Assembly: GCA_022483015.1 (NCBI GenBank)
Contig: JAKVOB010000001.1
Coordinates: 1,202,902-1,266,901, forward strand
Reading direction: 5' to 3'
Length of the DNA stretch: 64,000 bases
DNA from: Atopobiaceae bacterium
GTDB taxonomy: Bacteria > Actinomycetota > Coriobacteriia > Coriobacteriales > Atopobiaceae
The translations under genes and the position numbers were made by a program. Positions 8,995 through 59,166 of this stretch are shown here, piece by piece (the stretch's first letter is position 1; each line of letters begins with the position of its first letter). The notes beneath the pieces were generated by a model. It saw nothing but the letters and a program-made list of their open reading frames with translations, searched no databases and was not told where the DNA came from.

Positions 8995-9906
8995 ATGTCT
9001 TCTAAGCAGGCAATGTCGAAGCGTCGTCTCGAGCGCTGCGGTCTCACCGTCACAGGGGCATGCGTGACCCTCGTGGCGGTGCTGGTCGTGACCCTGATCG
9101 TGATGGTGGCCAGCCACGGGCTCGCCACCTTCACGGCCGACGGCATCCCGTTGGGCGACTTCCTCCTTGGTACGACCTGGAACCCGCACCAGGCAGATGC
9201 CGCAGGCAACCCCACGGTGGGGGCCCTCCCCATGATATGCGGCTCCTTCGCGGTGACGCTGCTGGCCACGGCCTTCGCCCTGCCCATCGCCGTCGGGAGC
9301 GCCATCTTCGTGGTGGAGGTCGCGCCCGGCTTCGGCCGACGCGTCTTCCAGCCGCTGGTCGAGCTCCTGGTGGGAATCCCGTCGGTGGTCTTCGGCCTCA
9401 TCGGTCTCACCGTCGTCGTGGCATGGACGCGCGGCTGGGCAGGAGGCACCGGCTACGGGATCTTCTCGGGGGCGGTCGTGCTCGCCGTGATGGTGCTCCC
9501 CACCATCACGAGCCTCTCGATCGATGCCGTCGCCGCCGTGCCCATGAGCTATCGGGAGGGTTCCTATGCCCTCGGGTGCACGCGATGGCAGACCATCTGG
9601 AACGTCGTCCTGAGGAGCGCCCGCCCCTCGCTCATGACCGCCACCATCCTGGGTATGACCAGGGCCTTCGGCGAGTCGCTTGCCGTGCAGATGGTCATCG
9701 GTAACTCGGCGCAGGTCCCGGGGTCGCTCTTCACGCCGGCCTCGACGCTCACGTCGATCCTCACCATGGGCATGGGCAACGAGGCCATGGGCACCGTCTA
9801 CAGTGACGCCCTCTGGAGCCTGGCCCTGCTGCTCCTGGGCATGAGCCTCGTCTTCATCCTCATCATCCATCTCATCGGCAGCAAGGGGGTCAAGGCCCAT
9901 GCCTGA
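8995..9906 (+). CDS. pstC: Phosphate ABC transporter permease PstC
   Basis: Inner-membrane permease, 303 residues, with six predicted helices. A long first helix (TGACVTLVAVLVVTLIVMVAS) is followed by the variable outer loop and the binding-protein-dependent transport fold. The EAA-like loop region contains YREGSYALGCTRWQTIWNVVL, the contact with the ATPase. It starts 22 bases after the pstS stop, after a GAGAGGGACC ribosome site, and overlaps pstA by 8 bases. It pairs with PstA to form the channel. Confidence 0.95.
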   Translation: MSSKQAMSKRRLERCGLTVTGACVTLVAVLVVTLIVMVASHGLATFTADGIPLGDFLLGTTWNPHQADAAGNPTVGALPMICGSFAVTLLATAFALPIAVGSAIFVVEVAPGFGRRVFQPLVELLVGIPSVVFGLIGLTVVVAWTRGWAGGTGYGIFSGAVVLAVMVLPTITSLSIDAVAAVPMSYREGSYALGCTRWQTIWNVVLRSARPSLMTATILGMTRAFGESLAVQMVIGNSAQVPGSLFTPASTLTSILTMGMGNEAMGTVYSDALWSLALLLLGMSLVFILIIHLIGSKGVKAHA

Positions 9907-49976: not shown

Positions 49977-50022
49977 GACAAGGGAGCGGCGCGCCTCGAA
50001 TCGGGCGCGCCGCTCCCTTGTC
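49977..50022. terminator. Strong bidirectional terminator
   Basis: A perfect 19-bp stem (49977-49995 with 50004-50022) around an 8-base loop, GC-rich, between the MBL gene and the convergent wall-protein gene. It is followed by TTCTT on the plus strand. Confidence 0.85.
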
Positions 50023-53017: not shown

Positions 53018-53109
53018 CGGCACGGCAGCGCTCGAACCGGGATCAGTCACGACAGCGCATATCGCCCCATGGCCCGGCATCGGTCCCTGCCGGTACGCAG
53101 GAAACAGAA

Positions 53110-53149
53110 GGGATCCGCGGGCGACTTCTGCCAAGTCCCCGCGGATCCC
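53110..53149. terminator. Terminator downstream of the pilus-side membrane protein
   Basis: GGGATCCGCGG (53110-53120) pairs with CCGCGGATCCC (53139-53149), with an inner GACTT/AAGTC stem. On the plus strand TTT follows directly. On the minus strand it ends the 53192-53611 transcript. Confidence 0.75.
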
Positions 53150-53191
53150 TTTGGTGCTGTGACGTACGCCGTGCCCCTTTCCCGACCGAGC

Positions 53192-56100: not shown

Positions 56101-56928
56101 CTAGAACAGTCCCAGGTACCAGGTCACGATGGGCGCGCCACAGAGCATCGTGAGCCAGGCCGCCACGGCGATGGCGGGCCCGAAGGGGAAGGTCCCGTGG
56201 CCCGAGGTGGTGGCGTCGTCCTCGTCGTCGTGGGGGAGGAGCCCCGGGACGAGCGCGAGCACGAGGCCCAGCACGCAGGCCACGATGACGAGCAGCAGGC
56301 TCTGCTGCCAGCCGAAGTAGAGGCCGCAGACGGCCAGCAGCTTGAGGTCGCCGCCACCCATGCTGGCCCGCCCCAGCACGTGGTCCATCACGAGCACGAT
56401 GACGAGCAGCGGGATGCCGATGGCGGCGGCCCCCACGAGGGAGTCCGTGAGCAGCGTCAGCACCTCTCCGCCGGTCAGCGCCACGTAGCCGATGTAGGCT
56501 GCGCGGATGAGGAGGGCGGCCACGATGCAGCCGTTGGGGATGGTGCGGTCGTCGAGGTCGGTCAGGGTGAGCACCACGAGCACGCTGGCGAAGGCGAGCA
56601 GCTCGACGGTCTGGGCCGTGAGGTCGTAGCGGGCGACGATCGAGACGTAGATCACGGCGGTCAGTGCCTCGCTCACCGGGCAGCGGGCCGAGATGTGCTC
56701 CCCGCAGTAGCGGCAGCGGCCGTGGAGGGCGAGCCAGCTTGCCACGGGCACGAGGTCGGCGGGCCCCAGCACATGGCCGCACGAGTCGCAATGGGAGCGC
56801 CCACGCAGGACCGATCCGCCATGGACGGCCCGCCAGGCGACGCATCCCAGGAAGCTCCCCATGACCAGGCCCAGCAGGGCGGTGACGGCGAGCGAGTAGA
56901 CCGTGATGAGGGGCGTGGCATACAGCAT
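56101..56928 (-). CDS. pilD: Prepilin peptidase PilD
   Basis: A 275-residue bifunctional prepilin peptidase/N-methyltransferase. The N-terminal part has GSFLGCVAWR and a zinc site of two Cys-x-x-Cys pairs (CDSCGH and CRYCGEH). The two catalytic aspartates of the aspartyl peptidase are in LTDLDDRTIPN and MGGGDLKLLA. About eight membrane helices surround them. It cleaves the leader of the pilins below after Gly and methylates the new N-terminus. It is separated from the pilin gene by an inserted ADP-ribosylglycohydrolase gene on the other strand. Confidence 0.94.
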   Translation of the reverse strand: MLYATPLITVYSLAVTALLGLVMGSFLGCVAWRAVHGGSVLRGRSHCDSCGHVLGPADLVPVASWLALHGRCRYCGEHISARCPVSEALTAVIYVSIVARYDLTAQTVELLAFASVLVVLTLTDLDDRTIPNGCIVAALLIRAAYIGYVALTGGEVLTLLTDSLVGAAAIGIPLLVIVLVMDHVLGRASMGGGDLKLLAVCGLYFGWQQSLLLVIVACVLGLVLALVPGLLPHDDEDDATTSGHGTFPFGPAIAVAAWLTMLCGAPIVTWYLGLF

Positions 56929-57031
56929 GGGCGGGCCTTTCGGTGGTTGCGTGCGACCAGCCTACCACGAGGGTGCCGGGGAATCGACAGGGCGGCCCGT
57001 GCGCGCGCCGGGGAATCGACCGACTGGGGTC

Positions 57032-57155
57032 GACGTAGCGCATCAGGCACCTTTTGGGGGCATAGAAGGTGCCTGATGCGCTACGTCAACGAAGGAGAGG
57101 GTCGGTCGGCGGGGGAGTGCGCCATGCCGGCGAGAGGAACGGGCAGGGTCGAGGG
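57032..57155. repeat. 124-bp direct repeat with 22-bp hairpin, copy 1
   Basis: The unit starts with a perfect inverted repeat (22 bases GACGTAGCGCATCAGGCACC-TT, then its complement) and continues through GAAGGAGAGGGTCGG to GGTCGAGGG. An identical-looking copy lies at 58529-58652. It is placed between pilD and the ADP-ribosylglycohydrolase gene. Just upstream, a 14-base direct repeat GCCGGGGAATCGAC occurs at 56975-56988 and 57007-57020. Confidence 0.9.
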
Positions 57156-57217
57156 TCAATTTATGTCCCGGAGGGTCGCTACCCTCTCGGCAGGGCCACT
57201 ACCAAGGAGGAGCCACC

Positions 57218-58480
57218 ATGGATGATTCTGCTACTGCCACATGCTCGCGTGCCGTTGCCACCGCGTCTGGCCAGGTGCCGGGTGAGGTGGCTGCCGCGGA
57301 CGGGTCGGCCATGTCCTCCCGTAGGCCGCAGGAGGAGGCACTCCTCGACAAGTTCAGGGGATGTCTCGTGGCTGGTGCTGCTGGTGATGCCTTGGGCTAT
57401 CCGGTGGAGTTCATGTCGGCCGCCCAGATACGAGCCGTCCATGGTCCGGACGGCATGCGTGACTTGCCACGTGATCCGCAGACGGGCCTTGCCCTCGTGA
57501 GTGACGATACGCAGATGACCCTCTTCACGGCGGCAGGGATCCTGGTCGGGGCGACGCGCCACCGCCTCTATGGTGTGGCAGCCTCGCCCGACTACTATGC
57601 CTGGCGGTCCTACCTCGACTGGCTGCACACGCAGGAGCCCGAGGGTCCGGCAGGCCCACATGAGTCGTGGCTCGCAGACGTCGAGGCGCTCCGGGACCGT
57701 CGTGCGCCGGGGCGGACCTGCCTTGCGGAGCTCGAGTACGGCCGTGCAGGCAGTGTCGATGAGCCGCTCAACGACTCCAAGGGCTGCGGCGGTGTCATGC
57801 GCGTGGCGCCGGTGGGGCTGCTCTTCGGTGCCGAGAGGGACGGGTGGGTCGATGGCGCCGGCGCCCTGGACGACGTCGCGCTCCTGGCTGCTGACGTGGC
57901 GGCCGTGACCCATGGCAACCCGCTTGGCTACATCCCGGCCGCTGCTGCCGCCTACCTCGTGCATCGCTGTGCCTACGAGGTGGGCTCGCGTGAGGGCGAC
58001 CGCCAGGCACGCCTCATGCGGATGGTGGACGAGTGCTGCGAGCGCCTGTCGGTCTGGTTCCCGCGGCAGGCGTCTGCCACGCAAGCGGTGTCGGACCTCC
58101 TCCGCCAGGCGATGGGCCTGGCGGGAAAGGACGTCCCTGACGAGGAGGCCGTGTGCGAGCTGGGGGAGGGCTGGGTTGCCGAGGAGACCTTGGCGATAGC
58201 GGTCTGCGCATGCCTACGCCATGCCGATGACGTGCCGGCGGCGCTCGCCGCGGCCGTGGACCACGATGGCGACAGTGACTCGTGTGGCGCGGTGGCCGGC
58301 AACATCATGGGGGCCATGCATGGTATGTCCGGTATCGACCCTGCCTGGCTGCAGGGCCTCGAGCTCGAGGATGTGACCATCGCCATAGCGGATGACCTCG
58401 TCGATGTCGCGACCGGCAGGTGGGACGTGGCCACGACCGAGCGGCTCGCGGCCCGGTACCCGGGCGGGCCCGAGGCCTGA
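57218..58480 (+). CDS. ADP-ribosylglycohydrolase family protein
   Basis: A 420-residue protein of the ADP-ribosylglycohydrolase (DraG/ARH) family, which removes ADP-ribose from proteins or nucleic acids. The metal sites are visible: GDALGYPVEF, then SDDTQMTLF (Asp-Asp-Thr) and the C-terminal VDHDGDSDSCGAVAGNIMGA (Asp-His-Asp-Gly-Asp-Ser-Asp). About 40 N-terminal residues precede the fold. ATG 57218 has AAGGAGG. It lies on the plus strand between minus-strand pilus genes and is flanked by two 124-bp direct repeats, so it was probably inserted. The ADP-ribosylated target and the matching transferase are not in this window. Confidence 0.9.
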   Translation: MDDSATATCSRAVATASGQVPGEVAAADGSAMSSRRPQEEALLDKFRGCLVAGAAGDALGYPVEFMSAAQIRAVHGPDGMRDLPRDPQTGLALVSDDTQMTLFTAAGILVGATRHRLYGVAASPDYYAWRSYLDWLHTQEPEGPAGPHESWLADVEALRDRRAPGRTCLAELEYGRAGSVDEPLNDSKGCGGVMRVAPVGLLFGAERDGWVDGAGALDDVALLAADVAAVTHGNPLGYIPAAAAAYLVHRCAYEVGSREGDRQARLMRMVDECCERLSVWFPRQASATQAVSDLLRQAMGLAGKDVPDEEAVCELGEGWVAEETLAIAVCACLRHADDVPAALAAAVDHDGDSDSCGAVAGNIMGAMHGMSGIDPAWLQGLELEDVTIAIADDLVDVATGRWDVATTERLAARYPGGPEA

Positions 58481-58528
58481 GGCTGTCCGGTCGGGGATGA
58501 TGCGGCGACATCCGTACGGCTATGCGTT

Positions 58529-58652
58529 GACGTAGCGCATCAGGCACCTTTTGGGGGCATAGAAGGTGCCTGATGCGCTACGTCAACGAAGGAGAGGGTC
58601 GGTCGGCGGGGGAGTGCGCCATGCCGGCGAGAGGAACGGGCAGGGTCGAGGG
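58529..58652. repeat. 124-bp direct repeat with 22-bp hairpin, copy 2
   Basis: Second copy of the 57032-57155 unit, in the same orientation, 1497 bases downstream, following the ADP-ribosylglycohydrolase stop by 48 bases. I saw no difference between copies by eye. The perfect hairpin at its start may also terminate plus-strand transcription. Confidence 0.9.
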
Positions 58653-58764: not shown

Positions 58765-59166
58765 CTACGAGGTCGCACCAGTAATTACGGCCGGGTCGTA
58801 ATTCATGGTCTCTGTGCCAGATGCTCCCGGGCCGGTGACGGTAATCACGCTTGTACCGTCAATTGTGACTGTGCAACCTGAAAGGGCATCAGATCCGAGA
58901 TCGGTGGAAATCTGCGTAACGAAATCACCAGCAGCAATGTCCGTACCGTCGGTAAGGTACGTGGCCGTGACGGTGGCCAGCTCGCTCCGCGTGTTTGCGG
59001 CACCCGTGGCCAGGTGGGCCTTGTCAAGCTGCGTCGTGAACACCGGGATGGCGATGGCAATGAGGACCGCGATGATGGCGACGACGATCAACATCTCCAT
59101 CAGGGTGAAGCCCTTCTTGCCTTCCTTCTGCAGCTCGGCCTTGCGTGCCTTGATCATCTCAACCAT
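58765..59166 (-). CDS. Type IV pilin (major-pilin-like prepilin)
   Basis: A 133-residue type IVa-like pilin. After an 18-residue charged leader ending KEGKK, the processing site G19-F20 reads GKKG/FTLMEM, with the conserved Glu at mature position 5, then the hydrophobic spine LIVVAIIAVLIAIAIPVF. The mature part is about 114 residues with a compact Ser/Thr/Gly-rich head. GAGGGG sits 6 bases before ATG 59166. Its small size suggests either the major pilin or a competence-type pilin. It is the last gene of the pilB-pilT-pilC run before the terminator. Confidence 0.93.
   Translation of the reverse strand: MVEMIKARKAELQKEGKKGFTLMEMLIVVAIIAVLIAIAIPVFTTQLDKAHLATGAANTRSELATVTATYLTDGTDIAAGDFVTQISTDLGSDALSGCTVTIDGTSVITVTGPGASGTETMNYDPAVITGATS

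Follow-up and report, generated by a model that had tools for sequence, protein, structure and literature searches.

Private hairpins framing nuclease-type genes suggest a mobile repeat system of an undescribed kind

The closest described systems to the arrangement reported here are the REPtrons, in which a RAYT gene lies between the REPs that its product processes (PMC3733652, PMC8266576). REPs are 20-40 bp in length, and CGTC REPs have been reported to lack a dedicated transposase (PMC3733652). The palindromes described in this work, one family of which (family a) lies on both sides of an ADP-ribosylglycohydrolase (ADPRH) gene in an Atopobiaceae bacterium, resemble those of REP/RAYT (TnpA-REP, REPtron) systems in being dispersed over many intergenic sites (at a low copy number, 12-14 for family a), private to one genome and mostly located at gene ends, and in that one gene family is framed by its own cognate palindromes. 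They differ in that the framed protein is predicted to be AbiEi-like with a PD-(D/E)XK domain, whereas that of a REPtron is an HUH Y1 transposase; in element size, which is ~62 bp here; and in lacking the unpaired GTAG/CGTC foot tag. Most family a copies carry CGTC at the foot of the palindrome, as CGTC-tagged REPs do, but both GTAG and CGTC fall inside the paired stem and do not form an unpaired tag at one foot. No Y1/RAYT transposase (PF01797) was found in the genome. An identity with E. coli REPs by way of a similar stem word was dropped, with no test in its support, and integron attC sites were rejected on the grounds that the stem ends are opposite in polarity to the attC consensus and that the spacers are absent.

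Repeats around the ADP-ribosylglycohydrolase gene

The window analysed is a stretch of 64,000 nucleotides from this genome (G000; 2.276 Mb, one contig). The features that concern the repeats are given below in window coordinates.

56101-56928, minus strand: pilD, prepilin peptidase (flank; PF06750/PF01478)
57029-57155, minus strand: repeat copy 1, consisting of a family a element (minus orientation) and a 64-bp tail, in the gap between pilD and the ADPRH gene
57029-57091, minus strand: hairpin of copy 1, with a perfect 22-bp inner stem and one mismatch in the outer stem
57092-57155, no strand assigned: tail of copy 1, unstructured and present in the two window copies only
57156-57217, plus strand: leader of the ADPRH gene, unique, with the ribosome-binding site AAGGAGG
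57218-58480, plus strand: ADP-ribosylglycohydrolase of the ARH/DraG type, 420 aa (ADP_ribosyl_GH, PF03747, E 1.9e-53)
58525-58588, minus strand: hairpin of copy 2, with a perfect 26-bp stem and a 12-nt loop
58526-58652, minus strand: repeat copy 2, in the gap between the ADPRH and pilin genes
58765-59166, minus strand: type IV pilin (flank; N-methyl, PF07963)

The two copies are direct repeats of 127 bp at a spacing of 1497 bp and are 99% identical, with one difference and an exactly identical core of 124 bp from 57032. Within each copy a hairpin of 62-64 bp comes first and the 64-bp tail follows. The arms of the copy 2 hairpin (58525-58550 and 58563-58588) are completely complementary over 26 bp, and those of copy 1 are 96% complementary over 25 bp. 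The initial annotation had described two identical same-direction repeats of 124 bases, each opening with a perfect 22-bp hairpin; the first figure corresponds to the identical core, and the second to the inner stem of copy 1, with that of copy 2 reaching 26 bp. When folded as single-stranded DNA, the hairpins of the copies reached -29.6 and -34.9 kcal/mol (z -11.3 and -12.2). The tail folded no better than shuffled sequences (z 0.22) and has no further copy in the genome beyond the two in the window. A whole-genome search with the repeat recovered the second copy at E 5e-60, and this match, taken with the near-absence of flank repeats at the 116 control genes described below, excludes a chance origin. 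The single difference over 127 bp supports the recent duplication that had been proposed, and, as had also been stated, the gene calls give no sign of a transposase gene between the repeats.

Other long perfect hairpins occur in the window at 49977-50022 and 53108-53151; these are possibly terminators and fall outside the repeat family. A motif like GTTCYTCTCGSC is found beside several hairpins (window 57129-57140 and 58626-58637; L141:2019-2040; L011 near 1530; L010 near 1940). A degenerate form of this motif gave 355 matches in the genome versus 31 for the reversed control, with codon bias accounting for at least part. The idea that GTYCYTCTCG serves as a DNA uptake sequence was rejected, as related words are common in the window but show no excess over Markov expectation.

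The ADPRH product has a full match to PF03747 and contains both metal-binding motifs, DDTQMT and DGDSDS; related structures in the PDB are ARH3, ARH1 and DraG. The gene runs opposite to a type IV pilus operon (pilB, pilT, pilC, pilin, pilD, pilM, pilN and pilO) encoded wholly on the minus strand, and the Pfam matches confirm its earlier placement as a plus-strand ADP-ribosylglycohydrolase gene between minus-strand pilD and pilin. Relatives were compared at one genome per species. Two of them (G044 and G050) have the same pilus operon with the pilin gene directly beside pilD, and ADPRH has no match in a same-genus genome (G001), indicating that ADPRH is an insert in the pilus operon, in line with the initial annotation. 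Across the family the gene is patchy, with homologs of 41-52% identity in 26 of 140 genomes, and it is thus an accessory gene at the pilin/pilD site. Its best relatives in the named collection were mostly Spirochaetales and Firmicutes records, a set from which records near this genome were possibly omitted. The pilD-pilin comparison yielded gene-free junctions in G044 and G050, and no empty site at the nucleotide level among the relatives. G001 was rejected as a clean empty site: it keeps the MarR and ABC exporter genes in synteny and lacks both framed genes, but the neighbors differ. The suggestion of a defence or toxin-reversal cassette was not borne out, as ADPRH has no PADLOC match and the genes seen next to it included no partner toxin.

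In a further relative (G022), the pilin/pilD position is occupied by a small gene other than ADPRH and by palindromes of a different family. There, palindromes of the family CCTCACGAA..TTCGTGAGG (L155:7094-7220 and 9590-9716) flank pilD together with a DUF559-type gene, likewise within the pilus operon.

One explanation of the insert is that a circular molecule carrying one repeat (R) and ADPRH entered by recombination at the one 127-bp R already present between pilin and pilD, or that insertion produced a 127-bp target duplication. The arrangement fits R-X-R exactly, and a single R would be expected at the empty site; both the adjacency of pilin and pilD in relatives and the patchy occurrence of ADPRH, with its lack of a match in G001, also speak for it. 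However, the tail is found nowhere else in the genome and so the donor must have carried the same locus, the unit includes neither an integrase nor a transposase, and no intermediate was seen. We consider such a cassette integration unlikely. The simplest account of the window is either that a family a palindrome, along with the 64 bp adjoining it, was duplicated on the two sides of ADPRH, or that the gene came in through recombination with a resident copy. Given that the tail was copied only here, the event in the window took in more than the element.

Palindrome family a in the genome

Pattern and covariance-model searches recovered 12 strong and 2 weaker copies of family a (the latter at 1166731 and 1319236). 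The same searches found none in G001, the covariance model gave a single weak match across 59 other genomes, and no family a hairpin was found in viral contigs; by these searches the family is private to the species. The dispersed copies bear out the non-autonomous repeat family that had been suggested, and their number is far from the hundreds of unrelated sites that would mark a common extragenic element. No unpaired half-sites were found beyond two weak singletons. The stem covaries: 97% of cells are paired, and double changes are seen at 7 pairs, in 18 cells compared with 5.4 in shuffles. The inner stem words CATCC, CCTTC, CATCA and GGTTC are each found together with their own complement, and hybrid copies at 2269880 and 2274410 combine the left arm of one type with the right arm of another.

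When the copies were compared over 62 bases, three pairs differed at 1 position and every other comparison at 4 or more. Each of these close pairs is in the same orientation with one gene inside: ADPRH, a protease-lectin gene, and the gene for a 319-aa protein. Four of the gaps between neighboring copies are 5 kb or less; of 20000 random placements, 3 reached this number. At the protease-lectin locus (L011:7381-11973; genome 2269880-2274473), two near-identical hybrid hairpins in the same orientation frame a 1432-aa C1-peptidase, Fn3-associated, lectin-like protein.

Nuclease-type proteins and their palindromes

The 319-aa protein is encoded outside the window.

Genome 2264250-2265209: nuclease-type protein, 319 aa, framed by two copies of palindrome family a

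The protein has no Pfam match at E 0.05. In 43 aligned homologs from Coriobacteriia relatives (the class being inferred from named matches), GE, D and E-x-D-G-x-x-K are invariant, with E205, D238, E252, D254 and K258 the same in all 43 sequences. These residues form the pattern of a PD-(D/E)XK active site, and the family is a predicted nuclease. An AlphaFold2 model of the protein has a mean pLDDT of 94.7. In structural comparison, residues 4-197 matched the AbiEi antitoxin 6y8q (Z 9.0, rmsd 7.0 over 177) and residues 202-316 matched the catalytic domain of the homing endonuclease I-Bth0305I (Z 8.5, rmsd 2.8 over 93), with lower-scoring matches of the C-terminal half to a Neisseria endonuclease-like protein and TnsA (Z 5.5). 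The model suggests an AbiEi-like DNA-binding N-terminal half joined to a Vsr/homing-endonuclease-like PD-(D/E)XK C-terminal half.

The likeness of the N-terminal half to AbiEi antitoxins of type IV toxin-antitoxin systems extends to weak matches with PADLOC AbiEi models in up to 30 of the 43 members. Unlike those antitoxins, the 319-aa protein family adds a nuclease-type C-terminal domain, and Pfam AbiEi_4 matches only 2 of the 43. The C-terminal domain shares its fold with the Vsr-like I-Bth0305I and TnsA, but no intein, intron or Tn7 context was present at the loci examined, and a PDB profile search by sequence with the family returned nothing meaningful and matched no solved chain. NCBIfam has no model for the family, and no relatives were confirmed in viral contigs.

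Matching repeats were present on both flanks of 35 of 46 nuclease-type homologs when 600-bp flanks were searched, with 11 having no flank repeat, and in 0 of 28 control loci (ADPRH and pilD homologs). In a wider control of 121 genes, four nuclease-type genes and the window ADPRH were positive; among the 116 others there were just three hits, one of them between paralogous coding regions and the other two marginal (E 8e-5). With a stricter cut-off, 700-bp flanks and one tRNA pair removed, 31 nuclease-type loci were framed, 23 by direct and 8 by inverted repeats, and this variable orientation, unlike that of transposon ends with a fixed architecture, speaks against the reading favored below. Most repeats lie 42-280 bp upstream of the gene's start and 1-80 bp downstream of its stop. 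Their sequence differs from locus to locus: when 13 units were concatenated and searched against ten genomes, each was found in its own genome only, commonly in many copies, among the matches listed. An independent case is Collinsella aerofaciens WP_148332043.1, where tandem hairpins stand before and after the gene.

Two further nuclease-type paralogs are present in the genome at 1070221-1071479 and 1288095-1289693 (L186 and L220), each framed by a different palindrome family. Tandem arrays of palindrome family c are present at other sites too, among them 2170191-2170588 and 2200105-2200501. In G053, the hairpins of paralogs L167 and L187 have a common outer stem, CATTGTCG, and inner stems that are different yet fully complementary.

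It is conceivable that the palindromes act as bidirectional transcription terminators or form hairpins at mRNA 3' ends and that they spread through ordinary gene conversion, so that the framing has no meaning for mobility. Several copies are located between convergent genes or just past stops, and the covarying arms also speak for it. However, no T-tract follows the stem, a scan found no terminator-like site, and copy 1 lies in a divergent region between the starts of pilD and ADPRH. We regard this as quite unlikely, since it leaves the locus-specific framing of one protein family (35/46) unexplained. It is very unlikely, in our estimate, that the framing palindromes control the nuclease-type gene, either as operators of the AbiEi-like regulator or as the antitoxin RNA in a type III- or IV-like toxin-antitoxin pair. 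The AbiEi-like N-terminal half and the tandem hairpin arrays ahead of the gene in Collinsella would fit such control, but copies are also found past the stop and at many unrelated sites, and we noticed no AbiEii-type partner toxin gene in the loci read.

A possible route of palindrome spread

We favor, with modest confidence, the reading that family a is a REP-like palindrome family with a nuclease-type cognate enzyme and that ADPRH is a passenger or bystander. The 319-aa protein is likely the cognate enzyme of family a, and the nuclease-type gene framed by the family, which the initial annotation missed, is likely the key to how the repeats arise. In our view, nuclease-type proteins probably act on and help to spread their own palindromes, because the loci share the REPtron architecture, the genome lacks a Y1 transposase, and the protein found in this position appears to be of the AbiEi plus PD-(D/E)XK kind.

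In such a mechanism, the 319-aa protein would recognize the palindrome in the form of a cruciform or of a single-strand hairpin and would nick or cut at it. Repair would place copies of the palindrome, together with a variable amount of adjacent DNA, in intergenic sites that are nearby or new. A pair of copies pointing the same way would then frame whatever DNA is between them; ADPRH, as an accessory gene inserted at pilin/pilD, would be one such framed passenger or bystander. Recombination across the 127-bp repeats could delete ADPRH and leave one copy. In other genomes, dispersed palindrome copies often border whole ordinary operons, and so the framing of ADPRH may be incidental.

The private hairpins that frame nuclease-type genes suggest a mobile repeat system not described so far. 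Searches of mainly openly readable literature returned no paper linking AbiEi with REPs, though an earlier description is possible, and nothing relevant on Vsr or homing endonucleases with REPs in the same scope. As a more tentative proposal, which we hold to be possible but somewhat doubtful, AbiEi-PD-(D/E)XK proteins may constitute a new mobile or selfish repeat class, widespread in Coriobacteriia, that spreads genome-private palindromes without an HUH transposase and sometimes also spreads the DNA between two palindromes. REP-like palindromes are common, and the enzyme tied to them in the literature surveyed is the HUH-type RAYT. If a second, unrelated enzyme type is indeed tied to cognate palindromes, the origin and spread of such repeats could be put to the test in gut bacteria, and there would be a candidate function for a conserved family of hypothetical proteins.
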